Below are positions 6,660 through 28,422 of a stretch of DNA of 64,000 bases, in pieces (within the stretch, counting starts at the first letter, position 1; every line of letters starts with the position of its first letter). The DNA is from an uncultured Erythrobacter sp. (GTDB taxonomy: Bacteria > Pseudomonadota > Alphaproteobacteria > Sphingomonadales > Sphingomonadaceae). Location: contig CANNCZ010000002.1 of NCBI GenBank assembly GCA_947503275.1, positions 826,733-890,732 of the forward strand, given 5' to 3'. A program made the position numbers and the translations under genes. The notes under the pieces were generated by a model, which saw only the letters and a list, made by a program, of their open reading frames with translations, was not told the origin of the DNA and ran no database searches.

Positions 6660-6865
6660 TCGTATTCTCCTGCCAATTCTCTTGGCTTGTATAGCGTTCG
6701 GGAATTAGGGTTCCCATACTGAACTCATACTTAGTGCGCGCGGCGCTAAAGTGGGAGAGAATAAGACGCTATGTCGCATATTACTGGCATGCCAACCGAA
6801 TTGCAGCGACACCCACGAGTTCGCTTGTGCCCCAAGCGCGATAGAATGAATTGGATTGTTACGGC

Positions 6866-7660: not shown

Positions 7661-7662
7661 GC

Positions 7663-8337: not shown

Positions 8338-8370
8338 GTGGTGCAGCGTAACACCAGCACGCCTGAACGT

Positions 8371-8877
8371 CTAACGACCGTCAATTCCCAGCAGCTCAAC
8401 CTTAAACAGCAAGGTCGCCCCACCCGGTATCGGCCCTCTACCGCGCGGGCCATAGGCAAGGCTGGCGGGCGCGGCGATTTCGATTGTCTCGCCAACCGCC
8501 ATTTGCGGGATTGCCATTTCCCAAGCCGGGATCAGGCCACTGAGGCCGAACTGGGCAGGCTCACCCCTTTCATAGGAGCTGTCGAACGGCTCCCCATCGA
8601 TAAAGGTCCCGGCGTAATGCACCGTTACCCGGTCGGCGGCTGTCGGTTTTTCCGTACCGCCCGTGTATTCGACATAGCGCCAGCGTAATCCGCCATCCAT
8701 CGTGTACCAGCCATCGGCTGCTTGGAGGCTCGAAAGATAGGCTTGCTGCGCGTTGTGATAGGCGCGTTCGGCAGTGGCTTGCTCAGCTGGTGTGGCTTCG
8801 GTGTGGCCATCGGCCAAAGCCGGAGTTGAGGCGATCAACAACGCCGCAAGGGGCAAGGTAGTTCTCATCATGTGCAT
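8371..8877 (-). CDS. Exported FKBP-type peptidyl-prolyl cis-trans isomerase
   Basis: A 168-residue protein with a signal peptide (MRTTLPLAALLIASTPALA) and a C-terminal FKBP domain: DRVTVHYAGTFIDGEPFDSS, LIPAWEMAIPQMAVGE and LAYGPRGRGPIPGGATLLF. These are the drug-pocket and active-site segments of FKBPs, so a periplasmic folding role is likely. I chose the ATG at 8877 because it overlaps the stop of the upstream amidohydrolase by one base (TGATG), implying translational coupling. It is the third gene of a tight run with the two amidohydrolases, so it may help fold those exported partners. Confidence 0.9.
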   Translation of the reverse strand: MHMMRTTLPLAALLIASTPALADGHTEATPAEQATAERAYHNAQQAYLSSLQAADGWYTMDGGLRWRYVEYTGGTEKPTAADRVTVHYAGTFIDGEPFDSSYERGEPAQFGLSGLIPAWEMAIPQMAVGETIEIAAPASLAYGPRGRGPIPGGATLLFKVELLGIDGR

Positions 8878-11614: not shown

Positions 11615-11621
11615 AGCTGGC

Positions 11622-11667
11622 CCCCTGATTTACCCGGTAAAGCCATTGCTTGACGGGAAATCAGGGG
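11622..11667 (-). promoter_or_regulatory. Long hairpin overlapping the ribosome binding site of the amidohydrolase lipoprotein gene
   Basis: Perfect 10-bp arms (11622-11631 and 11658-11667) are extended by a CCCG/CGGG pairing (11633-11636 with 11654-11657), leaving a loop of about 17 nt. Read on the minus strand, the 3' arm ends in AGGGGG, the apparent Shine-Dalgarno, 8 nt before the ATG at 11614. The structure would hide that site. It also lies 23 nt after the POT transporter stop, so a transcription or mRNA-end role is an alternative. There is no T-run. Confidence 0.5.
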
Positions 11668-11689
11668 CTTGTCCAGCCGCTTGGCAGCG

Positions 11690-13249
11690 TTAGCTTTGCG
11701 GTGTGACCGGAGCGGGGCCGTCGCCGAACACATGTTCAGCCTCAGACCCTGCATCGTCGTCCTGCAAAGTGTCCAGATGCATCAGTTTCTTGATCAGCGG
11801 GCTGACGATCATCACGCCAACTCCAATAATGACCGCGTAGAGGCCAACGGTTTCGTAGACACCCAAAACGACCTGCTTGCCTGCGGCTTCACCGACGCCT
11901 TCTGCGCCGGTCGCCGAGGCGATCAGGCCAGCGGCGAAATTGCCGGTCGCCGAGGCAAAGAACCACGTGCCCATAATAAGCGAGGCCATATGCGCAGGAG
12001 CCAAGCGGTTCATCGCCGAGAGCCCCACTGGCGACAGGCACAATTCGCCAGTAGTGTGCAGTAGATAGATCAGGAAGATAAAGATCACCGGCGTCGGCAC
12101 ATCGATACCAACGCTGCTCGCGCCCCAAACCAGGACCAGAAAGCCGAGGCCAACTTGCACGATACCAAGGCCGAATTTGAGGGGCGATGACGGTTCAAAA
12201 CCGCGCTGACCCATCCATGTCCAAAGCGTCGCGAAAATCGGCGCAAGCAGAATGATGTAGATCGCGTTGATCGATTGGAACGTCGATGCCGGAACACCGC
12301 CGCGATCAACGTGGCGATCAGTGAACAGGTTCAGAGACGAACCCGCTTGCTCAAACAAGGCCCAGAACACGATTGAAGTCGTAATCAGGAACAAGGCTGC
12401 AAAGATGCGGTCGCGGTCCTCGGCAGGCAGTTTAATGACTGCAGTGAAGATCACATAGCCCAGCAGCAAAAGGCCAAACCCGCCAAGCAGGAAGCCAACG
12501 ACTGATTGATATTGGATCAGGACCCAGCACACAGCAACCAGTCCAAAGCCGATAGCATACATGCTCCATTCGCGGCTCTTGGCGAGTGCCTTTGGTGGTT
12601 CACCCCGGCCAAGCAGAACGCCTTTGCCCAATGTGAACACGACCAAACCGGCAAGCATGCCGATCCCAGCCAGACCGAACCCATAGGCCCAGCCATAGGT
12701 CTCCCCGATATAACCGCACAGCAGCGAACCGATCGCCGCACCGAGGTTAATGCCCATGTAGAAGATGGTGTAAGCCCCGTCGCGGCGCACATCGGTGCGC
12801 GGGTACAATTGACCGACCATCACCGAAATGTTGGCTTTCAGGAAACCCGAGCCAACGATGATCAAAGCCAGCGCCAACCAAAAAACATAGATAACCGGAT
12901 TGTTCTCATTGCCAGCCGCAGCTTCGCCCTCAAACGCCATGAAAAAGTGGCCTAGTGTCAGAAGCACCGCGCCGAACGCGACAGCTTTTCTCTGCCCCAG
13001 CACTTTATCGGCCATATAGCCGCCGACCGCAGGGGTGATGTAGACCAGCGCCGTGTAAGCGCCGTAGATGATCCCTGCTTCGCTATCTGAATACAGCCAG
13101 TGCTTAGTCAGATAGAAGATCAGCAATGCGCGCATTCCGTAATAGGAAAACCGCTCCCACATTTCTGCGAAAAATAGCACGAAGAGCCCCTTTGGGTGCC
13201 CCATGATCGTGCCTGCGCTGTCGCCATGCGGCAAAGCTTGACTGGCCAT
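11690..13249 (-). CDS. POT-family proton-dependent oligopeptide transporter
   Basis: A 519-residue major-facilitator protein of the PTR2/POT family that imports di- and tripeptides with protons. The hallmark ExxERFxYYG motif is present near the N-terminus (EMWERFSYYGMRALL). Further family segments are ADKVLGQRKAV, FYMGINLGAAIGSLLCGYIG, SIVFWALFEQAGSSLNLF and GELCLSPVGLSAMNRLAP. About 14 hydrophobic segments are present. The frame is open for 195 more codons upstream, but that part overlaps the divergent GntR gene and is not transporter-like, so I start at ATG 13249. The neighbouring exported amidohydrolases suggest peptide uptake and breakdown together. Confidence 0.93.
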   Translation of the reverse strand: MASQALPHGDSAGTIMGHPKGLFVLFFAEMWERFSYYGMRALLIFYLTKHWLYSDSEAGIIYGAYTALVYITPAVGGYMADKVLGQRKAVAFGAVLLTLGHFFMAFEGEAAAGNENNPVIYVFWLALALIIVGSGFLKANISVMVGQLYPRTDVRRDGAYTIFYMGINLGAAIGSLLCGYIGETYGWAYGFGLAGIGMLAGLVVFTLGKGVLLGRGEPPKALAKSREWSMYAIGFGLVAVCWVLIQYQSVVGFLLGGFGLLLLGYVIFTAVIKLPAEDRDRIFAALFLITTSIVFWALFEQAGSSLNLFTDRHVDRGGVPASTFQSINAIYIILLAPIFATLWTWMGQRGFEPSSPLKFGLGIVQVGLGFLVLVWGASSVGIDVPTPVIFIFLIYLLHTTGELCLSPVGLSAMNRLAPAHMASLIMGTWFFASATGNFAAGLIASATGAEGVGEAAGKQVVLGVYETVGLYAVIIGVGVMIVSPLIKKLMHLDTLQDDDAGSEAEHVFGDGPAPVTPQS

Positions 13250-13438
13250 TATAGTCTTATTCCCTCTTATCGCGCTCTGCGGCCCATCCCCGCGAGCGTC
13301 CCCGAAAGCGCAGCACCCTAGCGACCAATCCGCCCGTGTGAAGCTTTTGTTTCGCGCTGCATGTGTAATCTTGCTTGGGTGTCTCACGCTTGACGCGCAT
13401 GGGTGTATTATGGCACTGAAGCACCTAGCGAGAAACAC

Positions 13439-13777
13439 ATGACCCAATCCAGACCCGTCTATCTCAAACTGCGCGATCAGATCGCGGCTGCCATTATCCA
13501 GGGCGATTACGCCGAAGGGGCGATGTTGCCATCGGTGCGCGCTTTGGCTGCGGCGCAGGGGGCCAACCCGTTGACCGTGGCGAAAGCGTATCAGCAATTT
13601 CAGAATGATGGTCTTGTCGAGGTGCAACGCGGAGTGGGTATGTATGTGGTCAAAGGTGCCGCCGAATTGCTGCGCAAGCGCGAGCGGGAACAATTCTTGA
13701 GCGAGGAATGGCCCGAAATTCGCGCGCGGATGGCGCGATTGGGGCTCAAACCGGCGGACCTTGCCGAACAACACTGA
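13439..13777 (+). CDS. GntR-family (YtrA-type) transcriptional regulator
   Basis: A 112-residue one-domain regulator. The winged helix-turn-helix fills about residues 8-75 (YLKLRDQIAAAIIQGDYAEGAMLPSVRALA, then NPLTVAKAYQQF and VEVQRGVGMYV). Only a short helical C-terminus follows, with no effector-binding domain, which is typical of the YtrA subfamily. The ATG at 13439 begins the conserved domain. It is divergent from the POT transporter gene with 189 nt between, so it may control that gene, but YtrA regulators more often control ABC transporters. I see no convincing palindrome in the intergenic region. Confidence 0.88.
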   Translation: MTQSRPVYLKLRDQIAAAIIQGDYAEGAMLPSVRALAAAQGANPLTVAKAYQQFQNDGLVEVQRGVGMYVVKGAAELLRKREREQFLSEEWPEIRARMARLGLKPADLAEQH

Positions 13778-16320: not shown

Positions 16321-17874
16321 ATGTCTTTGGGTATGACCCTGAGCAGCGATCCGAAAAATTCAGGTCAGCCGGGCAATTTCGGCAATATGGCGCTCATTGC
16401 GGGCGTGGCCTTTGTGCTGCTTGCCTGTTTGCAGCTGTTTTATAGCGCGTTTTATTCGATCCACACGGATTTGGCCGGTGCCGCTTTGTCGGGTCGCCTT
16501 GCTTTGTCTCTCGGCGATAGTTTTGTCGATTACAGCCTCTATTTCCCACCGGCAGAGCAAGTTTGGTTCACGCTGGCGGCTTGGTTGAGTGATCTGACGG
16601 GATTGCGGCTGGACCTCACGATCATCGCTATGACGGGCGTGGCGCTGCTGTTTTCCACTGGGCTTGCCTATCATATTCGCCGCGTGACTGTTGGGGCGTC
16701 GCCGCTGTTTCTGATCGGATCGATAGCGGTTCTGGTGATTTTGCCGGTGCTGTATAAGAACGTGTTTGGCCTGCGCGAACATCTGGTTGTTCTGGGTCTG
16801 TGGCCATATCTGGTGCTGCGCCTTTCGGATCCTGAGGGGACCAAGATTGGATTGCCCCTGCGCATTGTCGTCGGCCTATGGATGGGCGCGACTTTGCTGC
16901 TCAAATATCTCTATGCGCTGGTTGTCTTGTTGGTTGAGGTTGCCGATGCTGCTGTTCAGCGAAAGCCGTTATTCCTGTTCCGCATCGAGAACCTGATTTC
17001 GGGCGCAATGGTCGCGCTTTACTTGCTGTTGTGGCTGGTCCTTGATCCAGAGCAGCGCGAGATCATGGGCGCCGTGGTCAGCGCGATTGATGCGAACCTG
17101 ACGAGCACGCGCATTAATCTGGAGCAGGCCGGCCTGCACGGCGCGCTTGCCCTATTCTTTCTCATGCTGGGCTTTATCTACAAATTGCCTGTGCGGATGA
17201 CTGCAATAGGGCTGGGGTTGGTTATCGCCGCCATCGCTGCGGCTTGGATTCAGTCGCGTTGGTACAGCCATCATTTGTTTCCGATCACGATGGCCTATGT
17301 GACGTGGCTTTGGATGATCCATCGCCAGACAAAGCTGCTTTGGCTGGTCGGCCTTGCCATCATTATCGCTCGCCCAGTTTTGGGCGAATACGTTAATTCG
17401 CGCATCTATCAGGTGACCGTGACTGAACTGGACGAAGCGATGGAACGCTCTGCAATCCCCATTGAAGGCAAGCAGGTCGGCGTCCTCACCATGCACCCAT
17501 CGCCGTTTAACCAGCACCTCGCCGCAAATGGCGCGGTGCGGTGGAATGTCAGCATGAACAATTCCTATGTCGCGACGGCTCTAAAGCCGCTCGACCGGCC
17601 TGAGAATGAAGGCGTTATTCCGCCGCCAGTGACACTGGATGATCCGGGGATGCAGATGCTGCATGATGAGATGCTGCGCCTGTGGGAGGACAAGCCGCCG
17701 GAATTCCTGATCCTTGATGAGAGCACCAGTTGGCCGCTGCAATTCGTCGAAGTGAAGTGGCAGGAAGTGTTTGCTGAGGATGAGCGTTTCAACGCTATCC
17801 TTGCAGGCTACGAGCCGGTCTTTGAGCACGAAGGCGAATGGCTTGAATTCACCGTCTACGAGCGCATCGACTAG
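16321..17874 (+). CDS. Polytopic membrane protein, GT-C-like, function unknown
   Basis: A 517-residue protein with about 10-12 hydrophobic segments through residue ~360, followed by a soluble C-terminal domain of about 150 residues (HPSPFNQHLA, PPEFLILDESTSWPL). This architecture resembles GT-C glycosyltransferases and other lipid-linked sugar enzymes: short acidic loop motifs after the first segment (HTDLAGAAL, GDSFVDYSLYFPPAEQ) are where catalytic acids sit in that fold. I do not recognise a named family. It lies between tRNA-Leu and the convergent pseI gene, with 3 nt between the stops, so a glycan role is plausible only from context. ATG 16333 is an alternative start. Confidence 0.7.
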   Translation: MSLGMTLSSDPKNSGQPGNFGNMALIAGVAFVLLACLQLFYSAFYSIHTDLAGAALSGRLALSLGDSFVDYSLYFPPAEQVWFTLAAWLSDLTGLRLDLTIIAMTGVALLFSTGLAYHIRRVTVGASPLFLIGSIAVLVILPVLYKNVFGLREHLVVLGLWPYLVLRLSDPEGTKIGLPLRIVVGLWMGATLLLKYLYALVVLLVEVADAAVQRKPLFLFRIENLISGAMVALYLLLWLVLDPEQREIMGAVVSAIDANLTSTRINLEQAGLHGALALFFLMLGFIYKLPVRMTAIGLGLVIAAIAAAWIQSRWYSHHLFPITMAYVTWLWMIHRQTKLLWLVGLAIIIARPVLGEYVNSRIYQVTVTELDEAMERSAIPIEGKQVGVLTMHPSPFNQHLAANGAVRWNVSMNNSYVATALKPLDRPENEGVIPPPVTLDDPGMQMLHDEMLRLWEDKPPEFLILDESTSWPLQFVEVKWQEVFAEDERFNAILAGYEPVFEHEGEWLEFTVYERID

Positions 17875-17877: not shown

Positions 17878-18933
17878 CTAGCTAATTGCAGCCCAATCGA
17901 GCGGCTCACCGCGTTTAAGGTCGCGGGTCGCTTTCTTGCCCAGAACATCCGGCATGTGCTTGGGCGCAAGACCCTGACCGGGGCGGATTGAACGCACATT
18001 CTCTCGCGTCAGAACATCGCCCGCCGCCACGTCACCTACGACATAGAGTGAACGGCGAAACTGCACCGATGCGCTTTCGCTGCCTTGCAGGTCATAGGTT
18101 GCCTTGCCGAGCGATCGCCAAGCGCGCTTGCAATCGTCAACCAGGCTGGAGAATTCTTCGGGCTCAAGGCTGAATGCGGAATCCGGACCGCCATCGGCGC
18201 GGCGCAATGTGAAGTGCTTTTCGACCACACATCCGCCCAGCGCGATTGAAGAGACCGCAACCGCCGATCCGCCCGTGTGATCCGACAGGCCCGAAACCAC
18301 GCCAAAACGTTCCGCCAGATCGGGGACCGTGCGAATATTCGATTGCTCATCGGGCGCGGGATAGGAGCTGACGCAATGCAGCAGAACCAATTGTTCGCAG
18401 CCATTGTCGCGCGCAGTCTTCACCGCCTCACCAATCTCATCGAGGTTGGCCATGCCGGTGGAGATGATCATCGGCTTACCCTTTGATGCGCAATAGGCAA
18501 CGAGCGGCAAATCGACCGCTTCGAATGAAGCGATTTTGTAGGCAGGTGCACCGAGCTCTTCGAGTAGGTCGACCGCGCTTTCATCAAATGGTGATGAGAA
18601 CAGGGTCACACCCAATTCGCGCGCGCGGCGGAACAAAGGTTCGTGCCATTCGAACGGGGTCTGAGCCTCGCCATAAAGGTCGTAAAGCGTGCGCCCATCC
18701 CAAAGGCCACCTTCGACGGTGAAATCGGGGCCGTCGTGATCGATAGTGATCGTATCGGCGGTGTAGCTTTGGATCTTGATTGCATCTGCGCCCGTCGCAG
18801 CAGCCGCTTCGAGCAGCGTGATCGCGCGTTCCAGACTGCCATTGTGATTGCCCGACAGTTCGCAGATCACATAGGGCTCATGACCCGGACCGATTTGCCT
18901 GCCTGCAATGGTGATTTCGGGGGCGTTGGTCAT
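17878..18933 (-). CDS. pseI: Pseudaminic acid synthase PseI (NeuB family)
   Basis: PseI condenses 2,4-diacetamido-2,4,6-trideoxy-L-altrose with phosphoenolpyruvate to give the nine-carbon pseudaminic acid. The 351-residue product has the NeuB TIM-barrel (ELSGNHNGSLERA, ADAIKIQSYTADTITID, GVTLFSSPFDESAVD, AYKIASFE, LLHCVSSYPAP, SGLSDHTGGSAV, VEKHFTLRR) and a C-terminal SAF antifreeze-like domain (VVGDVAAGDVLTRENVRSIRPGQGLAPK). The YTADT and FDESAVD segments favour PseI over the sialic or legionaminic acid synthases. Its ATG overlaps the WbqC stop by 4 nt. It is the last gene of the minus-strand run. Confidence 0.93.
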   Translation of the reverse strand: MTNAPEITIAGRQIGPGHEPYVICELSGNHNGSLERAITLLEAAAATGADAIKIQSYTADTITIDHDGPDFTVEGGLWDGRTLYDLYGEAQTPFEWHEPLFRRARELGVTLFSSPFDESAVDLLEELGAPAYKIASFEAVDLPLVAYCASKGKPMIISTGMANLDEIGEAVKTARDNGCEQLVLLHCVSSYPAPDEQSNIRTVPDLAERFGVVSGLSDHTGGSAVAVSSIALGGCVVEKHFTLRRADGGPDSAFSLEPEEFSSLVDDCKRAWRSLGKATYDLQGSESASVQFRRSLYVVGDVAAGDVLTRENVRSIRPGQGLAPKHMPDVLGKKATRDLKRGEPLDWAAIS

Positions 18934-19676
18934 GCGGCTTCCTTTAGCTCGGCGCTGGTAAGCATGGGCTGACGGCCCGAGCGAATGATTTCTAGCGCGG
19001 ATGCATATCCGCAATGCATCAACAGATCGACGATGCTCATATATCCTACGAACTCGTCGCTGGATTGCTCGTATGGGGGGTGCGCAAAGTTGTGATAGCG
19101 CAGCTCCACCCCTGACCCTGCGAAAGCGCCGGATTGATGATCTTTCTCGATATAAGCGGCGCTACCCTGAGCGGAGAGATAGGTGTCCGCGCCGATCGCG
19201 CGGCAGATGGACAAGAGCCATTCGTCCTTGCGGCCACTTACGCCATCGAGCTGGGAGGACTGCACAAAGGGTGTCGTGATCCCCATGCGCTCAGCGGTCG
19301 CGGTGATGAACGCTTGATTGAGCGCGCCGATTGTCGCGTGTCCCGCGCCCATCAAGGCCTCTAACTGTGCGAAAACTTCCGCGAAATGCGGAGCCTTGGA
19401 ATAGGCGTGACGGATCGTTGACAGGTGCGTCTTGCGCCATTTCGGATGTGCATCGACGGCGGTGCTCACAAAGGTGCAATCCTCGCTCTGGCTGTGTCCG
19501 GTAAGAGGCACGGTGAGAAACGTTTCACCATTTTGGCCCAGCACGCGGTTGCGCACACCCCAGCTGCGTTTGAGCACCTGTGCATCGTCGAGAAAGACGA
19601 ATTGATCCACGCTGTCGATCAGGTCGAAATATCCGATCCACGGCAGATAAGTGGGCTGCATAATCGCGGTGATCAT
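18930..19676 (-). CDS. WbqC-like family protein in the pseudaminic acid operon
   Basis: A 248-residue protein of the WbqC-like family. The signature MQPTYLPWIGYFDLIDSVDQ with VFLDDAQ is at the N-terminus, and RNRVLGQNGETFLTVPL and the late YHNFAHPPYEQ are also family-typical. These proteins occur in O-antigen and surface-sugar clusters; their reaction is not settled, and a role in attaching an amino-acid or acyl group to an amino sugar has been suggested for some loci (from memory, unverified). It overlaps the flavoprotein upstream (ATGA at 19673-19676) and pseI downstream (ATGA at 18930-18933), so its product is needed together with them. It might stand in for the missing PseH step. Confidence 0.85.
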   Translation of the reverse strand: MITAIMQPTYLPWIGYFDLIDSVDQFVFLDDAQVLKRSWGVRNRVLGQNGETFLTVPLTGHSQSEDCTFVSTAVDAHPKWRKTHLSTIRHAYSKAPHFAEVFAQLEALMGAGHATIGALNQAFITATAERMGITTPFVQSSQLDGVSGRKDEWLLSICRAIGADTYLSAQGSAAYIEKDHQSGAFAGSGVELRYHNFAHPPYEQSSDEFVGYMSIVDLLMHCGYASALEIIRSGRQPMLTSAELKEAA

Positions 19677-20917
19677 GATGCTTTTGCAACCATTGTGACG
19701 CCCAGTGCCCTTTGCAAATCGGCTTCCACTTCTGCGAATTTCTCGCCCTTGGCATAGGCTTCCCATGCGCCGGGAATAAAGCGGTCGCCGCGCTGTGCCG
19801 CGATGGCTTTGCGCAACTCGCCAAGTCTATCAATCGTATCGACCGAATGATACAGCCAGCGCGGCTTTACCGTCCGGAACAGCTCTTTGCCGATGGACAA
19901 TTCGCCTTCAAATCCGTCATTCAAAGTGTGAATTTCCTCGACGAGAGCGGCATCATCGGTTTCCGCCACGCATTCGGCGGTCAACAAGACGCGGCCATTG
20001 CTTTTGTAGATATAGGTTCGGAAACAGCTGCCCTGCGCGGTGAAGTTTTGGACGTAAAACGGGACCGGCCCCGTCCAATCAACCTCGAATGTGTGCGTTG
20101 CGAATTTGCGCGCAGGAGCCTTGGGCGTCTCAACGCCGACCGCTTTGAACAAAGGCATCGGGCTGGCCGCCCAGATCACGATGTCTTCGGCGGTTTCCTC
20201 ACTCAGCATGGCGCCCGGTGTCGCAAGTTTGCGATCATAGATGCTCACGCCGATTTCGTTGAGCGCGCGGCGGCATTGCTCAAACATGCCGGTGAAGCCG
20301 CCCACGGGCAGACTGGCCTGACTATTGTTCGAATAATTCCACAATGCGCGCGGAATGCCGAACAGGTCGTTCGCCAATGGTGAGGATTGCTTTGCCGCAG
20401 ACAGGGCATCCAAGGAAACGCCGGTTGGAAACACCCGGTTGATCGCCAGCGGGATGGCGGCGCTGGCGTGCAATTGCGCAGGCGCGCATCCGACATGCCA
20501 GCGGACATATTTCGCAAGCGGGAAGGCCAAAGCGTCTTCGTAACATTCTAGCCGACTGAGCAGGTCTTCACCCTCAAGAGTGTTGAGGTCAGTCATGGTC
20601 GCCGACAATGCCGGGCCGCCGAAATCGTCGGTGTAAACCAGACCATCTTTGCCCGGACTAACCGATCCAAAGCGATTGTCGACGTCCTTGAAAACCGCGC
20701 CGTGTTCTTCGAGCAGGCCGCGCATGGGATCACCTTTAGGCCCGAAATAGACGCAGCCTTCGCGCATTTCGCTGCCTTCGCGAACCTGCGGCAAGGCAAC
20801 GCCGCCCAACGCATCCAAACGCTCGTAAAGTTCAATATTGCGTGCGCCCAAACGGTGCGCCTGAAACGCGGCCAAGATGCCGGTGAGACCCCCGCCAACA
20901 ATGCGAACGCGCCTCAT
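19673..20917 (-). CDS. FAD-dependent oxidoreductase (UDP-galactopyranose mutase/amine-oxidase-like) in the pse operon
   Basis: A 414-residue flavoprotein. The N-terminal Rossmann motif VRIVGGGLTGILAAFQAHRLG (GGGLTG at about residues 8-13) ends in an acidic ribose-binding ELYER, followed by LGGVALPQ, as in protoporphyrinogen-oxidase and UGM-type flavoproteins. The rest is not diagnostic to me. Nothing known in CMP-pseudaminic acid synthesis needs such an enzyme, so it probably modifies the sugar or a linked group. It is locked into the operon by an ATGA overlap with wbqC downstream. A 130-nt gap, holding two small palindromes, separates it from the methyltransferase gene upstream. Confidence 0.75.
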   Translation of the reverse strand: MRRVRIVGGGLTGILAAFQAHRLGARNIELYERLDALGGVALPQVREGSEMREGCVYFGPKGDPMRGLLEEHGAVFKDVDNRFGSVSPGKDGLVYTDDFGGPALSATMTDLNTLEGEDLLSRLECYEDALAFPLAKYVRWHVGCAPAQLHASAAIPLAINRVFPTGVSLDALSAAKQSSPLANDLFGIPRALWNYSNNSQASLPVGGFTGMFEQCRRALNEIGVSIYDRKLATPGAMLSEETAEDIVIWAASPMPLFKAVGVETPKAPARKFATHTFEVDWTGPVPFYVQNFTAQGSCFRTYIYKSNGRVLLTAECVAETDDAALVEEIHTLNDGFEGELSIGKELFRTVKPRWLYHSVDTIDRLGELRKAIAAQRGDRFIPGAWEAYAKGEKFAEVEADLQRALGVTMVAKAS

Positions 20918-20975
20918 GCCCCGACTTCCATCGGGTTAAGGGTCCAGCACGGGGCAATTTCGCAGCGCATACCCA

Positions 20976-20988
20976 CCCCGCTACGGGG
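20976..20988. repeat. Short G/C palindrome between methyltransferase and flavoprotein genes
   Basis: CCCCG-CTA-CGGGG at 20976-20988, with a further GGGG copy just after, lies in the 130-nt gap of the pse run. A second stem, GGGCC-N7-GGCCC, is at 21029-21045, 2 nt beyond the methyltransferase stop on the minus strand. Neither has a T-run. They may be mRNA-processing or attenuation hairpins or an intergenic palindromic unit. Confidence 0.35.
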
Positions 20989-21047
20989 AAGGGGTAGACA
21001 ATTCGTTAACTACAATTTGCCGATTGCAGGGCCTATCGCTGGCCCGC

Positions 21048-21707
21048 TCAGATATTTAGGGCGCGCGGCTCAATATCGCTGGTGTGGACATAGATCGTGA
21101 ACTCGAACGGGATCGCACCGGGCCGCACTGCATAATCGTGCCGAAGGGACACCAGCGGTGACAGGTTTTCCTTGCAGAATTGAAACGCGCTGAGCGGATC
21201 TTCGTAATACAATCCATCATCGAAGTAATCGACGAAGCGGCTGAGCATGTTGAACGCATAGCCTTTGCGCGCATGCTGCATCAGGCGCCGCGATGCCGCT
21301 TCGAAGAAGCCGCGATTGTCGCTCATCGCGTTGTTAAAGACGCCGCTGACGAGGACGAAATCGAATTCTTCTTCTGGCGGATTCTCGAGGATGTCGCGCA
21401 CTTCAAAACGCCCTTTGGGATGCGCTTTGCGTGCAAATTCAATCGCTTCGGGTGACACGTCATAGCCGACATATTCCCCCTCAAACCCGATCGTGCGTTG
21501 CAGCAGGCTGAGCATCTGTCCCGTTCCGCAACCGAAATCGAGCACTTTGCTGTCTTTGGTCACGCCGATATCGCACAGCACCTCCATCCGGCGTTCCTGC
21601 GTTTCGCGGTCGGCATATTGTGCGCCTTCGGCTGCATCGCCGTGTTTGTTGACGAGGTCGCCGTAATGTTTGGCGAGAGCATCGATGTCGTTTTTGAAAG
21701 TGTTCAT
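21048..21707 (-). CDS. SAM-dependent class I methyltransferase in the pse operon
   Basis: A 219-residue Rossmann-fold methyltransferase. Motif I is VLDFGCGTGQ at about residues 55-64, the acidic residue after strand 2 is in YVGYDVSPEAIEFAR, and motif post-I ends in FEVRDILENPPEEEFDFVLVSGVFN. It starts directly after the pseG stop (1-nt spacing), at the position where pseH acetyltransferase is found in many pseudaminic acid clusters. The protein has no GNAT features, so it is not PseH. Methylation of the nonulosonic acid, of its N-acyl group or of a linked residue are possible roles. The substrate is unknown. Confidence 0.88.
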   Translation of the reverse strand: MNTFKNDIDALAKHYGDLVNKHGDAAEGAQYADRETQERRMEVLCDIGVTKDSKVLDFGCGTGQMLSLLQRTIGFEGEYVGYDVSPEAIEFARKAHPKGRFEVRDILENPPEEEFDFVLVSGVFNNAMSDNRGFFEAASRRLMQHARKGYAFNMLSRFVDYFDDGLYYEDPLSAFQFCKENLSPLVSLRHDYAVRPGAIPFEFTIYVHTSDIEPRALNI

Positions 21708-22715
21708 CTAGCGCCTCATGGCCTCAAGAATTGCATTGGCCGCATTTGCGGATGGATCGGCGACAAAGCTTGCGCGCATCTGTTTGGCCATGCCGGCGCG
21801 CAAGTTTGTGTCTGAAAGGAAAGTGTTCAATCTCGCCGCCAAATCATCGTCGCTGACTGTATCGGCGAGGCCCAGATCGAAGACAAGCCCTGCGCTTGCA
21901 AACACCTTGGTTTCGCCGTCCTGCCCTTCGTTCTGAGCAATCGCAGCGGCGGGGACGCCCATATACGCGCTCTCATATTTGATCAGACCGCCGCCCGTGA
22001 TTGCGGCATCCGCCCAGATGAGTTGTTCGGAAAGGTCGGGTTGCCGCGGCACGATTTGGCTGCCGGTGGCGAAGCGCGTCAATAAAGCTTCCAGATCGGC
22101 ATTGGGCTGAGCAATCGCATGGACGCACAGGTCGCGGGTCTGCTCACCAAGCAGGCGGGTGAGGCGGAGCGCCAACCCCTTTGGATCAGAACCGCCAATT
22201 GCGATCAGGAGATTGCGGATTGACCCGGTTCGGGCGCGCTGCACGCTGGTTTCCCGGCGTTCGACCAGTTTGCGCCTTGTCAGCAAATGGTTGTGGCCAA
22301 GGATCAGTGTGGGGCCTTTGGGATAACCGAGCTTAGGGGCTTCCCATGTGAAATTGAGGATGGCGTCGCAGGGATAGGCCGATAGCTTGCAGAAATCGTC
22401 GATGACGACAGTGCGAAGGCTCAGGGATTGGAGGTTGTGGAGGTATTGCTCGTCTACGCGGTAGCTGTCGATGACCACGAAATCGGCCTCGAATCCGCCA
22501 AATTCGCGCGTCGCCGCCCCGGAATTGACCGGCTGCGCGAAGGCTTTGCTCGCAAAACCGGCGGATGCGATTTGGTTTGTGGCGGCATGGTCAAATTGCC
22601 CGGCAAAAGTGCTTTCGACGCCAGACAGTTGCAATGCCTCGGCCAGCGCAATGCAGCGGCTGAGATGGCCAAAACCGATGTCCGTGGTCGCATCGCACCG
22701 GAACACGGCGTGCAC
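21708..22715 (-). CDS. pseG: UDP-2,4-diacetamido-2,4,6-trideoxy-beta-L-altropyranose hydrolase PseG
   Basis: PseG removes UDP from the altrose intermediate before PEP condensation. The 335-residue product has the MurG-like GT-B fold of the family. The hallmark FRCDATTDIGFGHLSRC is at the N-terminus, containing the GxGHxxR segment with the catalytic His. VVIDSYRVDEQY, IGGSDPKGLAL and ITGGGLIKYESAYMGVP are also typical. It starts at GTG 22715, which overlaps the pseF TAG stop by one base (TAGTG); the upstream codons belong to pseF in another frame. There is no fused acetyltransferase domain, so the PseH activity is not supplied here. Confidence 0.92.
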   Translation of the reverse strand: MHAVFRCDATTDIGFGHLSRCIALAEALQLSGVESTFAGQFDHAATNQIASAGFASKAFAQPVNSGAATREFGGFEADFVVIDSYRVDEQYLHNLQSLSLRTVVIDDFCKLSAYPCDAILNFTWEAPKLGYPKGPTLILGHNHLLTRRKLVERRETSVQRARTGSIRNLLIAIGGSDPKGLALRLTRLLGEQTRDLCVHAIAQPNADLEALLTRFATGSQIVPRQPDLSEQLIWADAAITGGGLIKYESAYMGVPAAAIAQNEGQDGETKVFASAGLVFDLGLADTVSDDDLAARLNTFLSDTNLRAGMAKQMRASFVADPSANAANAILEAMRR

Positions 22716-23404
22716 TATGCATCCCCTTGGGTGGCGGCGAACAATCGCTCGGCCATCACCCAATCCTCTGGTCGGTCAATATCGACCGCGCGCCATTCGG
22801 GCAGTTCCATAAAGCGCGTGCGGGGGCCGAAAAACGGGCGTCGTTCGAGCCAAGCATCGCGGCTCCCCCAGTAAAACTGGCCGGAATCGTGAAAAACTGG
22901 CGGCAGGTCTTGAGTGCGTGTGGCGCGATGCTCTGGTTGCGTGAATTCAGGGCAACCCTCGCCGCTATCGGTAAAGCCGCGTTGGGGCGGATGGCCGTAT
23001 CGGACCGCCGGAAATGCGAAATCGCATTGGTCGGAAAGCTTGGCTCGCGCCGCCGAAAGATCTTCCGCGGAGATGAAAGCGGCGGTGGCGTAGATGCAAG
23101 CGGCGGCTTCGACCTGCCATCCGGCAGCCAAGGCCCAAGACAGCGCATGGACGATGACATCGGTCGTGCCGGTGTGATCATCCGATAATTCGGCGGGGCG
23201 CATGAAGGGGGTTTGTGCGCCCGATGCCCTGGCGACTTCGGCAATCTCTTCGTCATCGGTTGAGACGATAACGTGTTCGAACAATCCCGATTCCAGCGCC
23301 GCTGCAATCGGCCATGCGATCATCGGGCGGCCACAGAATTCGCGGATATTCTTGCGCGGAATGCGTTTACTGCCCCCACGAGCCGGGATAATCGCGATGT
23401 TCAT
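22715..23404 (-). CDS. pseF: Pseudaminic acid cytidylyltransferase PseF
   Basis: PseF activates pseudaminic acid with CTP to CMP-pseudaminic acid, the donor for transferases. The 229-residue product carries the nucleotide-binding start MNIAIIPARGGSKRIPRKN and the CMP-sugar synthetase segments VIVSTDDEEIAEVA, LSDDHTGTTDVI and VFHDSGQFYWG; the last separates PseF from NeuA. Its ATG at 23404 overlaps the pseC stop by 4 nt (ATGA at 23401-23404), and its own stop overlaps the pseG start. Confidence 0.94.
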   Translation of the reverse strand: MNIAIIPARGGSKRIPRKNIREFCGRPMIAWPIAAALESGLFEHVIVSTDDEEIAEVARASGAQTPFMRPAELSDDHTGTTDVIVHALSWALAAGWQVEAAACIYATAAFISAEDLSAARAKLSDQCDFAFPAVRYGHPPQRGFTDSGEGCPEFTQPEHRATRTQDLPPVFHDSGQFYWGSRDAWLERRPFFGPRTRFMELPEWRAVDIDRPEDWVMAERLFAATQGDA

Positions 23405-24558
23405 GCGCAGACGGCCTTTGCGACCTCGGCAATGACGGTCTGCTGTTGCTCTTCGGTGATCGTCGGGAACATCGGGATGCTGATAGCCTCGGCATAGTAG
23501 GCCTCGGCATTGGGGCACAATCCGGGGGCAAAGCCCAGCTTGCGATAATAGGGTTGCAGATAGACGGGGATGTAGTGGAGGTTCACGCCAATCCCGGCTG
23601 CGCGCAGATGATCAAACACCGCGCGATGCCTCGCCGCATCGACCCGGATCACATAGAGATGCCATGCTGAGGCCGCGTCGGGATGCTGCCATGGTGTCAT
23701 GACCGGCATATCGGCAAAGGCCGCGTCATAGGTCGCGGCGATTTTGCGACGGCGGGTGATGAAGTCGGCCAAGCGGTCCATCTGGCTCAAGCCCAGCGCC
23801 GCATTGATATCGGTCATCCGGTAATTGTAGCCAAGGCTGTGCTGCTCGTAATACCAAGCGCCCTCATCGATCCGTTCAAGCAGGGCGGGATCGCGGGTGA
23901 TCCCGTGGCTGCGCCCTGCTCGCATGCGTTCGGCAAGTTCGGGGTCGTTGGTCATCGCCATGCCACCTTCGCCCGTGGTCACGATCTTGACCGGGTGGAA
24001 GCTAAAGATGGCGATATCGCTGTATTCGCAATGGCCGACCGGGTTCGCCCCGAAAGAGCCGCCAATTGCGTGCGAGGCGTCTTCGATGATCCGGACGCCG
24101 TGTTTGCTGGCGGCGGCATGGATCGCGGCCATATCGCAGGATTGGCCTGTCAGATGCACTGGGATGATGGCTTTGGGCAGTCTCCCTTCGCGGGCTGCAT
24201 AGTCGAGTTTCTCGGCCAGCCTCTCAGGGCACATATTGTAGCTGCGTTCGTCCACGTCGACGAAGTCCACGCTGGCCCCGCAATAGAGCGCGGCGTTTGA
24301 GCTTGCGACGAAGGTTAGCGGGCTGGTCCAGACGCTGTCACCCGGTCCCACATCCAGTGCCATACAGGCCATATGCAGCGCGCTGGTGGCGCTGTTGGCG
24401 GCAACTCCAAAGCGCGCATCACTGATCTTCGCGACCGCTTCCTCGAAAGCCGGGCCGACCGGCCCCTGCGTCAAAAAGTCAGATTTCAGGACCTCGACGA
24501 CAGCGGCAATGTCATCCTCGGTTACCGACTGGCGTCCGTAGGGAATGTAGCCGGCCAT
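23401..24558 (-). CDS. pseC: UDP-4-amino-4,6-dideoxy-N-acetyl-beta-L-altrosamine transaminase PseC
   Basis: PseC transfers an amino group from glutamate to C4 of the 4-keto-altrose intermediate, using PLP. The 385-residue product is a DegT/DnrJ/EryC1 aminotransferase. The start YIPYGRQSVTEDDIAAVVEVLKSD, the TSPLTFVASSNAALY segment, EDASHAIGGSF and the PLP-lysine segment FSFHPVKIVTTGEGG are visible. The C-terminus HYIPVYLQPYYRKLGF is typical for this subgroup. It overlaps pseB by one base (TGATG at 24556-24560) and pseF by four. Confidence 0.94.
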   Translation of the reverse strand: MAGYIPYGRQSVTEDDIAAVVEVLKSDFLTQGPVGPAFEEAVAKISDARFGVAANSATSALHMACMALDVGPGDSVWTSPLTFVASSNAALYCGASVDFVDVDERSYNMCPERLAEKLDYAAREGRLPKAIIPVHLTGQSCDMAAIHAAASKHGVRIIEDASHAIGGSFGANPVGHCEYSDIAIFSFHPVKIVTTGEGGMAMTNDPELAERMRAGRSHGITRDPALLERIDEGAWYYEQHSLGYNYRMTDINAALGLSQMDRLADFITRRRKIAATYDAAFADMPVMTPWQHPDAASAWHLYVIRVDAARHRAVFDHLRAAGIGVNLHYIPVYLQPYYRKLGFAPGLCPNAEAYYAEAISIPMFPTITEEQQQTVIAEVAKAVCA

Positions 24559-25568
24559 CAGGCAACATGCGTCGGATCGACGTGTTTGCGGATTAATGCG
24601 CGCAGTTCTTCGACCGACAGGAAGTCTGGATTTGAGCCGCTTTCATAGCAAAAGCCCGGTTCAACCCGTGTCCCGCCGCGTTTTTCCAGATAGTTCTCTG
24701 AAAGGAACTCGGTCGTGCTGGGCAGGATCGCGTAATAGGGGCCGAGGTCGATCGTGTTGAGGCTGTCACTGGAGGTGATCATTTCCTCGTGAATCTTTTC
24801 ACCGGGACGAATGCCAACAATCTTCTGCTCGCATTCCGGCGCCACCGCTTCGGCCACATCGGTGATGCGGTAGCTGGGGATCTTGGGCACGAAAATCTCG
24901 CCGCCATGCGCATTTTCAAGCGCCCACAGGACCATCTCCACACCCTCTGCGAGTGAGATGTTGAACCGCGTCATGGTTGGGTCTGTGATCGGGATTACGC
25001 CGCTTTCGCGCTGAGCCATGAAGAACGGCACGACCGAGCCCCGGCTGCCGATGACGTTGCCATAACGCACGACCGACAGGCGCAGATCACGCGATCCGCG
25101 AATATTGTTGGCCGCGGTGAAGATCTTGTCAGAGCACAGCTTTGTCGCGCCATACAGATTGATTGGTGCGGCAGCTTTGTCCGTGGAGAGCGCAACGACA
25201 TTGGACACATTGTTGTCAAAGCATGCTTCGATCACATTTTGCGCACCCAGCACGTTGGTCTTGATGCATTCAAACGGATTGTATTCGGCCGCCGGCACCT
25301 GTTTCAATGCTGCCGCATGCACGACAATATCGACCCCTTCCAGAGCGCGGCGCAGCCGGTCCTGATCGCGGATATCGCCAATGAAATAGCGCAGCTGAGG
25401 ATATTCTTGCGGCGAGAATTCCTGGCTCATCTCGTACTGTTTCAGCTCGTCGCGCGAATAAATCACAAGACGGCCAACGTTTAGATATTTATCCAAAACA
25501 GCCCGAACAAAGGCCCGCCCAAACGAGCCAGTTCCACCGGTCACCAGAATGTTTTTATTGTCCAGCAA
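24558..25568 (-). CDS. pseB: UDP-N-acetylglucosamine 4,6-dehydratase (inverting) PseB
   Basis: PseB starts the pseudaminic acid pathway by dehydrating and C5-inverting UDP-GlcNAc, using bound NADP. The 336-residue product is an extended SDR of the FlaA1 type. The GGTGSFG cofactor motif lies at residues 11-17, the catalytic segment STDKAAAPINLYGATK contains the Asp-Lys pair and the SDR Tyr and Lys, and ALKQVPAAEYNPFE and MTRFNISLAEGVE are family signatures. The inverting type, rather than a retaining PglF/LegB type, is judged from these segments and from the adjacent pseC. The start lies 14 nt inside the wzx gene. Confidence 0.94.
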   Translation of the reverse strand: MLDNKNILVTGGTGSFGRAFVRAVLDKYLNVGRLVIYSRDELKQYEMSQEFSPQEYPQLRYFIGDIRDQDRLRRALEGVDIVVHAAALKQVPAAEYNPFECIKTNVLGAQNVIEACFDNNVSNVVALSTDKAAAPINLYGATKLCSDKIFTAANNIRGSRDLRLSVVRYGNVIGSRGSVVPFFMAQRESGVIPITDPTMTRFNISLAEGVEMVLWALENAHGGEIFVPKIPSYRITDVAEAVAPECEQKIVGIRPGEKIHEEMITSSDSLNTIDLGPYYAILPSTTEFLSENYLEKRGGTRVEPGFCYESGSNPDFLSVEELRALIRKHVDPTHVA

Positions 25569-26847
25569 GCGATTTTGCTCCTTTTCGCAGGTTCATATAG
25601 CGGGCAATCACAAGGACACCGCTGATAATGAATGCGGCCCCGAATGACACCGCCGTCGCAAACATAATACCCCGAATTCCCATGCTTTGCGCCCACAGAA
25701 TGCTGAGCGCGATATTGAGAACGATGGTCATCACGCTGAATGCGGACATCATCTCAATCCGCTTGTCGAAATGGAGGAATTTCATGTTGTGCATGAAGAA
25801 GCCCTGCAAGACGATGGCGAGCATGATGTATTGCAACAATGGGATAGCGCTATGGAATGCTTCGCCGAGTAGGATCGGCGCGAACAGCAACGCAAAGAAA
25901 TAGAACGCTGCCGCAGCGACAGCCGCCAGCACGAAATAGAGCAGGGAGACCGAGGCGACCTCTTGCAGGCCGTCTTCGGCTGCGCCCTTCAATTTGCGGA
26001 ACAGCCACGGCGTCCATGCCATCACAAAGCTGTAGTTCACCATCCAGAATGCCGAGGCGAACAGAGCGGCGACGCCGTACATCGCGCTGGCCTCAACCCC
26101 CAAAAAGTGCGCCGCGACGACTTTGTCTGTGGTGCCAACCACCATGACAACTGCGCCAGCGGGCCAATACACGACGCCGAAAGAGGCGATGTTACGGTAG
26201 AATGACCGTTCAGGGATCTTGAATAAGGTGGGCAGCGTAAAGCCGAGCGAACGCAGCGAGTATACTGCCGCAATCGCCATGCCCAGCATCCGCCCCAGAA
26301 CCACGCCGCGCCAATCCCAGCCTGAGCTGAGGAAGATGACGATAAAGGCCATGGACAGCACAGCTTGGATCACTTGCGTCACTAGGAACGCTTTGCGCCG
26401 ATTATGGAACTGCTGCAGCGCAAGGACCATATAGAACACTTCATACAGCAGGGCTGCGATGACGATGCTGACGAGCCATGCTTGCGGAAATTTGGTCGCG
26501 GTTGCCAGCAATTCGCCGAACACGACCGTCACCAGCGATACGAATATCGCCAGCGTGACCATCACGAACAAAGCGGTGTGAGTGAATTGATCGAGCTGTT
26601 TCTGATCAAATTCGAGGAAGCGCATCCGTATCGCGTCCTGTGTCGTCAATCCGACGATAGGGCGCATAAAGGTCGCGTATGTGATGAACAAAACCCACAC
26701 GCCATAGCCGGTTGGATCAAGCATTCGGGTAAGGATCGGTGCCAGCAAAAGCGGCACGAGCGCTTCGATGCTGTTGGCAAACGCATAGAATAAAGATTGC
26801 AGCGCCAAAAACTGTTTGGCGTTTAAATTGAACGCTTTACGTATCAT
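25555..26847 (-). CDS. Wzx-type polysaccharide/oligosaccharide flippase
   Basis: A 430-residue MOP/PST-superfamily membrane protein with about 12 hydrophobic segments. The N-terminus (ALVPLLLAPILTRMLDPTGYGVWVLFITYATF) is the usual Wzx entry sequence. Such flippases move lipid-linked oligosaccharides to the outer leaflet of the inner membrane. It is the first gene of the minus-strand pse run and overlaps pseB by 14 nt, so the nonulosonic acid is probably part of a lipid-linked surface glycan rather than only a flagellin decoration. I start at ATG 26847; a TTG lies one codon upstream. Confidence 0.88.
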   Translation of the reverse strand: MIRKAFNLNAKQFLALQSLFYAFANSIEALVPLLLAPILTRMLDPTGYGVWVLFITYATFMRPIVGLTTQDAIRMRFLEFDQKQLDQFTHTALFVMVTLAIFVSLVTVVFGELLATATKFPQAWLVSIVIAALLYEVFYMVLALQQFHNRRKAFLVTQVIQAVLSMAFIVIFLSSGWDWRGVVLGRMLGMAIAAVYSLRSLGFTLPTLFKIPERSFYRNIASFGVVYWPAGAVVMVVGTTDKVVAAHFLGVEASAMYGVAALFASAFWMVNYSFVMAWTPWLFRKLKGAAEDGLQEVASVSLLYFVLAAVAAAAFYFFALLFAPILLGEAFHSAIPLLQYIMLAIVLQGFFMHNMKFLHFDKRIEMMSAFSVMTIVLNIALSILWAQSMGIRGIMFATAVSFGAAFIISGVLVIARYMNLRKGAKSLAGQ

Positions 26848-27006
26848 CAACCGCCCTTGCGCATTGCCCCTGAAGCACTCGCCGCGGCCAGTGCATTACA
26901 GTTTGTAAACCTAAATTGTTAACGATTGCCTGAGATAAGCTCGTTCAAGCCTGACCGGTCATAACCGGCGGGTTTTTAGTAACTGCTTGCCTTGAGGTAG
27001 ATCAGC

Positions 27007-28422
27007 GTGGCTTTCAAAGCTGTTAAAATGCGCGAAGTGTTCGCTGAGACGGAAGACGTCGCAGTTCGCGAGATTGAGCCTGAAACTGAGAGTTCTGCGC
27101 GGCGGGATCGCTATGATCTTGCGACCGCTCTTGGCATTGTGCGCGAGATGGAAACATCCGCTGGGCGCGCTGCGGTGTTTGAGGAAATCAAGAACAAGAA
27201 CGCGATCTATCGTCTGGTTGATGCGATTTACACCAAATCCGGCACCGGGCTCCTCCAGCCGCTATTCCTGTTCATTTACATGCTGAAATGCGTGGTTTCG
27301 CTTGGCCCGTTTAAAGATGCAGGGGCCGAAGCGGTCTCCATCGCCAATTTCGACAATGAACACAAAACGATCGCGCGGATCGCAAAGCTGGTTCCCGATG
27401 TGCCGTTGATGCATGTCTCGGTTGAGCGCAAACACATCTTTGCCATTGAGCAAGTGAAAGCAGCCTTTGCGATGCTGGGTTCATTTGGCCGCGCATTTTC
27501 GTTTCTGCGCATTCTGGTTCGCACGCACAGCTTTATGCCCGCAGCTCGGATCGCCAGCGCGCTCGCATTCTACATGCGCTTTTCGCAAATGTTCTCAGAG
27601 CGCCCCAAGCTGAAGGCGGCCATTGTCGCTAGCAATTACAGCCCTGAATCGGTCGGCATGGCTGCGGCCGCGCACCGCCATGGTCGCCGGGTTGTTTATT
27701 CAAACCACGCGCCCGTCCCCGCCAACGGCCCCGTTGTGCCCCCAGTCTTCGCCGATTGCGCGCTGTTTTACGGTGAGGAAACGCGCAAGACATATGAGCG
27801 CCGTAGCGCTTGCACCGCAGAGGTCGGCTATATCGGCGAGCCGGGGACGGCACGCGCTATGGAATGGCGCGATGAGGTGAAAACTGTCGGCATATTCCTA
27901 ACCTCGGGCACCAAAGTCGATGTGCTGCAAAGCCTGATCGCGACGATCCGCGTCAGCCTGCCTGATGCGCATGTTTTGATCCGACAACATCCGGTTCAGC
28001 TGCTCAGCACCGATTTTTCCGGACTTGAGCTTGATGATGCCAATGTCGAATTGACAATCGGCAATCCGCTGGATGCCGAAATCGCCGCCTGCGATCTGGT
28101 GATTTGCGGCAATAGCGGCGTTGCGATGAACGTCCTGAGCGCAGGCAGACCAGTCGCTTATCTCTCAAGCCTTGATGGGATACTCTTCGATTCCAACGGG
28201 TTCATCGCTAGCCGGCTGGTCTACAACATGCCGTGGTGGAGCGATGATCTGTATGATCGGCTTCGTGGGTTTTATCAGGCGCCGGGATGGCGCGGCGTGA
28301 TGCAGGACTACGACGCATCCTACGGGGTTGAAGATGATGTGCTTGCAGAAGCGGCGAGAAACACCCTGATGCGCCACCTTCGCCCTAACACTCAGATAAA
28401 TTCCGCGAAGGAAGCTGCGTAG
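27007..28422 (+). CDS. Putative GT-B glycosyltransferase with HP motif, candidate nonulosonate transferase
   Basis: A 471-residue protein, divergent from the pse/wzx run. I cannot assign a family by name. The C-terminal half reads as a nucleotide-sugar-binding Rossmann domain: VKTVGIFLTSG, then IRQHP with His328-Pro329, then DLVICGNSGVAMNVLSAGRPVAYLS with Asn369-Ser370-Gly371. An HP motif and a later Ser/Thr motif are the conserved donor-site features of several bacterial sialyltransferase families and of KpsC/KpsS-type transferases that use CMP-sugars. With CMP-pseudaminic acid made next door, it is a good candidate transferase, but that is inferred. The start is GTG 27007 behind GAGG; ATG 27028 is an alternative. 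Confidence 0.6.
   Translation: MAFKAVKMREVFAETEDVAVREIEPETESSARRDRYDLATALGIVREMETSAGRAAVFEEIKNKNAIYRLVDAIYTKSGTGLLQPLFLFIYMLKCVVSLGPFKDAGAEAVSIANFDNEHKTIARIAKLVPDVPLMHVSVERKHIFAIEQVKAAFAMLGSFGRAFSFLRILVRTHSFMPAARIASALAFYMRFSQMFSERPKLKAAIVASNYSPESVGMAAAAHRHGRRVVYSNHAPVPANGPVVPPVFADCALFYGEETRKTYERRSACTAEVGYIGEPGTARAMEWRDEVKTVGIFLTSGTKVDVLQSLIATIRVSLPDAHVLIRQHPVQLLSTDFSGLELDDANVELTIGNPLDAEIAACDLVICGNSGVAMNVLSAGRPVAYLSSLDGILFDSNGFIASRLVYNMPWWSDDLYDRLRGFYQAPGWRGVMQDYDASYGVEDDVLAEAARNTLMRHLRPNTQINSAKEAA

Follow-up and report, generated by a model that had tools for sequence, protein, structure and literature searches.

A pseudaminic acid locus without a detected pseH carries a recurring methyltransferase, flavoprotein and WbqC gene set

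Which group is placed on the amino sugar of a pseudaminic acid (Pse) pathway when its locus carries no recognisable pseH? The question is raised by a 64,000-nucleotide stretch of DNA from an uncultured Erythrobacter sp. (contig CANNCZ010000002.1 of assembly GCA_947503275.1, positions 826,733 to 890,732 of the forward strand), which is referred to here as the window and to which coordinates refer unless another locus is named. In the established pathway PseB and PseC make uridine diphosphate (UDP)-4-amino-4,6-dideoxy-L-AltNAc, which PseH acetylates. Within the run of pse genes in the window stand three further genes, encoding a methyltransferase, a flavin adenine dinucleotide (FAD)-binding protein and WbqC. 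We consider it probable that a pseG-pseH segment has here been exchanged for a cassette made up of a divergent pseG and these three genes, giving a cytidine monophosphate (CMP)-activated Pse that carries something other than plain acetyl at N7. A locus in which no PseH is found and a gene set of this kind recurs suggests that this marine bacterium makes a form of the surface sugar, a bacterial relative of sialic acid, that has not been described.

All genes of the run lie on the minus strand. They are, in order of transcription, pseB (24558-25568; inverting UDP-GlcNAc 4,6-dehydratase; TIGR03589, 527 bits), pseC (23401-24558; the aminotransferase making the 4-amino sugar; TIGR03588, 546 bits), pseF (22715-23404; CMP-Pse synthetase; TIGR03584, 280 bits), a divergent pseG (21708-22715; UDP-sugar hydrolase), a class I S-adenosylmethionine (SAM)-dependent methyltransferase gene (21048-21707; PF13847, 56 bits), the gene of an FAD-binding oxidoreductase with an amine-oxidase-like N-terminal part (19673-20917; PF13450, 26 bits), wbqC (18930-19676; PF08889, 231 bits against a gathering cut-off of 21.3) and pseI (17878-18933; Pse synthase; TIGR03586, 505 bits). 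The original prediction, made from the letters alone, had recognised pseB, C, F, G and I on one strand with the three other genes inside the run. Curated models identify all five pse products, PseB, PseC, PseF and PseI above their cut-offs and PseG below, and domain matches bear out the other three. For PseG, TIGR03590 is the best family at 134 bits, under the curated cut-off of 153.6, and an IGFGHxxR stretch aligned to PDB entry 3hbm with an E value of 0.002. The genes join tightly, by TGATG between pseB and pseC, ATGA between pseC and pseF, and TAGTG between pseF and pseG, where we propose a GTG start; the starts of pseF, wbqC and pseI were likewise taken from ATGA junctions. Translational coupling of all the added genes had also been proposed. 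The abutting pseG and methyltransferase genes and the ATGA overlaps of the FAD gene with wbqC and of wbqC with pseI agree with this, but the methyltransferase and FAD genes are 130 bases apart, so the proposal is wrong for that junction.

No pseH was found in the locus, as the original prediction also had it, or anywhere else in the genome. With the curated model TIGR03585 (cut-off 93) the best match across the whole 3.41-Mb window genome reached 14 bits. We judged this model insufficient by itself because the PseH domains of fused family proteins miss its cut-off (47 bits in locus L043; the L039 domain unlisted at E 1e-6). A second test used a 29-sequence profile built for this analysis. It gave six GNAT-type matches in the window genome, the best a partial one of 38 bits, and best matches of 34 and 36 bits in two other genomes sharing the locus; three PseH-type relatives, whose own sequences are part of the profile, reached 133-145 bits. 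When the eight fused family domains were held out of the profile, those domains scored 74-102 bits and the best GNAT of the window genome 33.

What stands at this place in relatives can be read from the family. PseI passed its cut-off in 12 of 199 sampled family genomes, and in ten of these loci a PseH domain, a formyltransferase or both lie close to pseI. The two without either are the window and L037 of genome G179, and in both the methyltransferase, FAD and wbqC genes occupy the slot; L037 is the same contig place as L005, and it and the window represent one island. A GNAT domain is fused to the C-terminus of PseG in eight loci (L039, L040 and L042-L047) and a formyltransferase lies between pseG and pseI in two (L038 and L041). 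The slot domains were checked with Pfam for L038, L039, L041, L042 and L043 and assigned by reading and profiles in the others. In L038-L047, as in the window, the slot concerned is the step from the PseC product to PseI, and pseB and pseI are related to those of the window; these loci differ in carrying an acetyl- or formyltransferase with an ordinary PseG where the window has the cassette. Two side observations concern the same slot. L042 and L044 combine the fused PseG-PseH with a PIG-L-type deacetylase (by our reading in L044) and a formyltransferase-like protein, a gene set that suggests acetylation, deacetylation and formylation in sequence. Between pseC and pseG, L039 and L044 carry by our reading an ATP-pyrophosphatase-type protein and HisH-like and HisF-like open reading frames (ORFs), a set that presumably resembles acetimidoyl-forming systems; Pfam leaves the L039 protein unnamed and gives the L044 protein a weak match.

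The association of the three added genes with pseI, on which the original prediction also depended, is not random. The island keeps one order of eleven genes in five genomes (the window and L003-L006), and the order of the cassette returns in two divergent loci. A profile of the FAD protein had hits in four of the 397 family genomes searched and in two of the 385 class genomes, the window being counted in both. One is L104 of genome G956, from the same family as the window, which reads pseB-pseC-ORF-pseF-pseG-methyltransferase-FAD-wbqC-pseI with a flagellin upstream; its three added proteins are 45% (methyltransferase), 28% (FAD protein) and 36% (WbqC) identical to those of the window. The match in G304 (L080) has no pse gene within the 20 kb fetched. 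L141, from a different class, has exactly the order of the window, from pseB through pseI, and a flagellin near. The distribution is patchy: among 90 genomes of the family of G781, a full-length FAD match occurs in G781 alone.

At the level of the phylum, PseI passed its cut-off in 62 of 398 genomes, and 60 of the loci were fetched, leaving out the window and G708, which stops inside pseI. WbqC (at least 100 bits, within 10 kb of pseI) was found in 5 of the 60, PseH (at least 60 bits) in 36, a formyltransferase in 10 and none of the three in 15. Beside L141, the WbqC loci L124, L145 and L159 are looser versions, with WbqC, another or an additional methyltransferase and a divergent pseG; L124 and L145 have an amine-oxidase-type FAD protein that the FAD profile matches weakly or not at all. 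The absence of PseH is less sure for L124, as its genome (G893) has a 71-bit GNAT elsewhere, and weak for L159, which is on a 6.4-kb contig. In L167 the distance between pseI and wbqC is 5.6 kb, the two genes are on opposite strands, and no pseG was detected. L100, found through WbqC, contains pseF, pseG, pseI, wbqC and the methyltransferase gene, its PseI falling just below the cut-off. In the seven PseI-WbqC lineages with a pseG (the island, L104, L141, L124, L145, L159 and L100) a SAM methyltransferase is always within two genes of wbqC (7/7), and five have an amine-oxidase-like FAD protein.

Loci with WbqC tend to be those without a known acylating enzyme. PseH and formyltransferase were both missing from five of six WbqC loci and from 15 of 65 others in family and phylum together (Fisher p = 0.006); with the island counted once the comparison is 4/5 with 15/65 (p = 0.017), and in the phylum only 3/4 with 15/55 (p = 0.08, or 0.03 if L167 is counted as a WbqC locus). 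L167 was left out of these tests and of the PseG and PseI tree comparisons below, and L104 and L100, which came from FAD or WbqC searches, were excluded from the Fisher tests and included in the PseG comparison. For the latter, profiles were trained on PseH-only loci, which were themselves scored under fivefold hold-out. The seven WbqC lineages have PseG scores of 0.30-0.58 bits per residue, and the 59 other loci have a median of 0.95 (p = 1.7e-7); the p value is 5e-8 when the comparison is with the 49 PseH or formyltransferase loci alone, and 1.3e-6 for the five WbqC loci drawn irrespective of WbqC. The formyltransferase loci, likewise outside the training set, have a normal PseG (median 0.97). 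PseB, PseC and PseF of the WbqC lineages do not differ from the others (p 0.17-0.44), and PseI differs weakly (0.03). Related loci are not independent in any of these statistics.

The nearest relatives of the individual genes show a mosaic. In L141, pseB, pseC and pseF are nearest to the PseH-type locus L118 (83, 68 and 66% identity) and pseI to L115, L116 and L118 (76, 72 and 76%), all without the cassette, while pseG, methyltransferase, FAD and wbqC are nearest to L104 (43, 64, 45 and 51%). In L104, pseB, pseC and pseI are nearest to the PseH-type loci L040, L138 and L110, and pseF to island locus L006 (42%). For the window, pseB is nearest to PseH-type L040, pseF to PseH-type L118, pseI to L167, L125, L120 and L039, the methyltransferase gene to L104 (45%), wbqC to L145 (43%) and the FAD gene to L136 (35%). 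A tree of PseI rejects a single clade of WbqC loci (approximately unbiased test, p-AU 1.5e-7), also without the outlying L100. In the PseG tree L104 and L141 share a stem 1.44 changes per column long; three label changes are needed, and long branches are present. L003, a near copy, was left out of the trees. From the mosaic relatives and the trees together we read an exchange of pseG-methyltransferase-FAD-wbqC for pseG-pseH in otherwise ordinary Pse loci.

PseG is described as the enzyme that acts directly after PseH in the known pathway (PMC7910423). If the unit replaces both pseG and pseH, it would be simplest to assume that the N4 group is already different when PseG acts. In the pathway that we propose, PseB and PseC would produce UDP-4-amino-4,6-dideoxy-L-AltNAc as usual. 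In place of acetylation by PseH, the cassette would add a different, probably methylated, substituent to the 4-amino group; this substituent would most likely be an amide, with WbqC the likeliest enzyme to form the bond. The altered PseG would then take UDP off the unusual substrate, and PseI and PseF, both of ordinary type, would convert the sugar to a CMP-activated Pse with an N7 group other than plain acetyl. In the window organism, whose genome gave no match to the flagellin family PF00669 at E 0.001, the sugar probably enters a surface glycan exported by a flippase; in two other lineages the same cassette sits in flagellar loci. We infer from gene content and neighbourhood the N4/N7 position as the site of change, bond formation by WbqC, action of the methyltransferase and the FAD protein on the new group, and the type of glycan.

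The role assigned to WbqC draws on its neighbours outside Pse loci. At E 1e-20 WbqC was detected in 87 of 398 phylum genomes; of the 19 WbqC loci that were then fetched, most have no pseI-like gene nearby. After L080, L091 and L097 were left out (without WbqC, or with failed gene calls), 17 loci were counted, two of which (L090 and L093) are nonulosonic acid loci themselves. A DegT sugar aminotransferase was found in 11 of 76 ORFs within 2.5 kb of WbqC and in 2 of 70 beyond 4.5 kb (p = 0.018); PIG-L deacetylases account for three ORFs near WbqC and at most one far ORF among the matches listed. Because both kinds of enzyme make free amines, WbqC is a candidate for the bond-forming enzyme. No published work on WbqC function turned up in our literature search, within the texts available to it. 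As a separate observation, L090 has WbqC inside another nonulosonic acid cluster, where a NeuB-family synthase, a PseG-like protein, WbqC and, by our reading, a PIG-L-like deacetylase follow one another (4906-8867 of that locus).

The methyltransferase has homologues of 37-45% identity in the WbqC loci L104, L141, L145 and L100. Like TIGR03587, the Pse biosynthesis-associated methylase Pse_Me-ase, it is a methyltransferase inside a pse locus; it differs in falling far under that model's cut-off (22 bits against 112) and was not assigned to it. In the FAD protein only the N-terminal, Rossmann-type part is matched by Pfam, and a profile of seven homologues hits the FAD domains at the N-termini of flavoproteins in PDB, those of amine-oxidase type among them. 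UDP-galactopyranose mutase was rejected as an identity, as no such family is among the Pfam matches of the seven homologues. A search for the FAD protein in plasmids gave no match.

Several results weigh against the proposed exchange and pathway. In L136 an FAD homologue, 35% identical to that of the window, lies between pseG and a true PseH of 161 bits (10584-13539 of that locus), where neither WbqC nor a methyltransferase of the window type was detected and a TylF-type methyltransferase is nearby. The FAD family is therefore wider than the cassette, the idea that the protein strictly substitutes for PseH is weakened, and it may act at another position, given where the L136 homologue sits. 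L145 has, in addition to WbqC and the methyltransferase, a GNAT of 104 bits by an iterated profile of our own and 33 by TIGR03585. The 15 phylum loci with neither WbqC nor a detected PseH or formyltransferase mean that lacking a linked PseH is not rare, and low PseG scores occur in PseH-type loci too (0.50 in L164, 0.56 in L131). The mosaic is clear for L104 and L141 and only partial for the window, whose pseG is nearest to L145 at only 30%, equal to PseH-type L163 (30%), and whose pseC is nearest to WbqC locus L124 (62%) with L127 (63%) close by; nor does the PseG tree reject one clade of WbqC loci (p-AU 0.09). Methyltransferases are not commoner near WbqC in general (4/76 near, 4/70 far, with the commonest methyltransferase models). 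Predicted structures from five-sequence alignments were unusable (predicted local distance difference test scores of 39 for WbqC and 38 for the FAD protein), and profile searches of PDB with WbqC gave first no match and then chance-level matches only. A QPxYLPWxGYF motif had by our reading suggested a HUP-type, pantoate ligase-like enzyme, and hhalign did not support this: the probability against PF02569 homologues was 0.03%, compared with 0.03-0.36% for nine unrelated profiles, the PanC profile being shallow. The original interpretation as a modified nonulosonic acid is supported in part: the failure to find pseH elsewhere, the non-random trio and the divergence of PseG in WbqC loci speak in favour, and the FAD homologue beside a PseH and the missing coupling at one junction weaken it.

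If one of the unlinked GNATs carried out the PseH step, the product would be ordinary Pse5Ac7Ac and the trio would add decorations, for example O-methylation elsewhere on the sugar. A separated enzyme has a parallel in Caulobacter crescentus, where flmH has a locus tag far from that of neuB and its loss does not phenocopy that of the others, which is attributed there to redundancy or promiscuity (PMC7591256). The six GNAT-type matches in the window genome offer candidates, and the FAD protein of L136 does accompany a PseH. We nevertheless regard this explanation as unlikely, in view of the gap between 33 bits and the 74-102 bits of held-out family PseH domains, the trio's occupation of the place of the acylating enzyme in relatives, and the change in PseG, which acts just after that step. 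Alternatively, the amino group might be left free or receive no more than a methyl group, so that the product is a mono-N-acetyl Pse and WbqC and the FAD protein act on another part of the glycan; this seems to us improbable. Such a product has a counterpart in the 274-Da nonulosonic acid of Shewanella oneidensis flagellin, which the authors interpret as a singly acetylated Pse, but the same text reports that this sugar carries a further methylated unit of 236-264 Da (PMC3765264), and in other contexts WbqC goes together with sugar aminotransferases. That the trio serves another sugar of the same glycan and came to lie among the pse genes by operon accretion would suit the many WbqC loci without a pseI-like gene and the conserved spacer element belonging to the FAD-side half, and is very improbable given that the trio keeps its order beside pse genes that differ in descent (L104, L141) and that PseG diverges together with the trio.

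The proposed exchange of a pseG-pseH segment for the cassette has partial precedents. The PseBCHGIF pathway of Campylobacter jejuni and Helicobacter pylori, as set out in PMC7910423, shares PseB, PseC, a PseG-type hydrolase, PseI and PseF with the window, whose PseG is divergent and in whose genome no PseH was found, with the methyltransferase, FAD protein and WbqC present instead. In the sfmABCDE genes of S. oneidensis the authors likewise found no clear PseH, and a predicted methyltransferase accompanies a PseI-like protein; an ATP-grasp protein is suggested as carboxylate-amine ligase, with the product read as mono-N-acetyl Pse plus the methyl-bearing 236-264 Da moiety (PMC3765264). That system differs in that its ligase candidate is an ATP-grasp protein and not WbqC, its setting is flagellar, clear orthologues of PseG, PseI and PseF are lacking and the text at hand mentions no oxidoreductase. 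No ATP-grasp (SfmE-type) or TPP-dependent (SfmB-type) domain is among the Pfam matches of the window locus, the sfm proteins themselves not having been searched. The Shewanella system is best regarded as a precedent for the chemistry and not for the enzymes. The polar flagellin glycosylation islands of Aeromonas hold pseBCFI constant and vary in pseG and pseH. Further genes stand between pseG and pseI there, and a fused PseG-PseH is noted; WbqC and the FAD protein are not among the extra genes named in the part of the source available (PMC7874193). N-methylated nonulosonic acids with dedicated methyltransferases are described for the PtmG/PtmH derivatives and Leg5GluNMe7Ac of Campylobacter and Clostridium, where the enzyme families are others and PseH and LegH are identified in the Clostridium locus (PMC13317340). 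In the openly licensed literature we found no paper joining WbqC with pseudaminic acid, and none that treats a pseudaminic acid gene cluster together with a methyltransferase, an FAD-dependent enzyme and flagellin. A variable pseG/pseH with extra genes before pseI is already known from Aeromonas, and the WbqC/FAD/methyltransferase cassette is a variant new to the literature found.

A bolder form of the proposal, which we advance tentatively and hold to be somewhat short of an even chance, is that WbqC founds a class of enzymes installing sugar N-acyl (amide) groups and, with the methyltransferase and the flavoprotein, builds an undescribed N7 substituent of Pse, the cassette with its retuned PseG being mobile among Pse loci of both polysaccharide and flagellar type in different bacterial classes and replacing pseG-pseH. 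On flagella and surface polysaccharides nonulosonic acids form a coat, and the N-acyl groups that they bear can influence recognition by other cells and by phages. If the proposal is true, Pse loci contain a modular site at which one chemistry is exchanged for another, acetyl for formyl and perhaps for a third, while the next enzyme changes in step. Unusual Pse derivatives would then be predictable by a rule readable from genomes, and WbqC, a common family, would gain a testable role.

The remaining features concern the interior and borders of the island. The 130-bp spacer between the methyltransferase and FAD genes (20918-21047, minus strand) contains a 15-bp core, TAGTTAACGAATTGT, identical in all five island genomes compared (the window and L003-L006), and a 19-base version of it has a single occurrence in the window genome when up to three mismatches are allowed. 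A mini-ORF lies 3' of the core (18-24 codons in the five genomes, 18 in the window), and its TGA overlaps the ATG of the FAD gene in each. Core and mini-ORF may be an internal promoter followed by a leader ORF; no such spacer separates the methyltransferase and FAD genes of L104 and L141. Adjoining pseI is a 517-aa protein (16321-17874, plus strand), a membrane protein by our reading, for which no Pfam family passes its cut-off and whose homologues in L003-L006 are 61-98% identical. Directly upstream of pseB, and overlapping it by 14 bases, is a flippase-type polysaccharide biosynthesis gene (25555-26850, minus strand; PF01943, 58 bits), kept at the same place in L003-L006 and not named in the original prediction. 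A homologue is directly 5' of pseB in L117, a locus with PseH and formyltransferase; its 590 bits come from a profile that includes the L117 protein itself, which entered at a phmmer E below 1e-10. Beyond the flippase gene, a divergently transcribed 471-aa protein (27007-28422, plus strand), also beside the island in L003-L006, gave no Pfam family above cut-off and only chance-level matches in PDB. It is a candidate glycosyltransferase for Pse, and L039, a PseH-type locus, has a homologue of 28% identity (287 aa, E 4e-17) close to pseI (4615-5442 of that locus).

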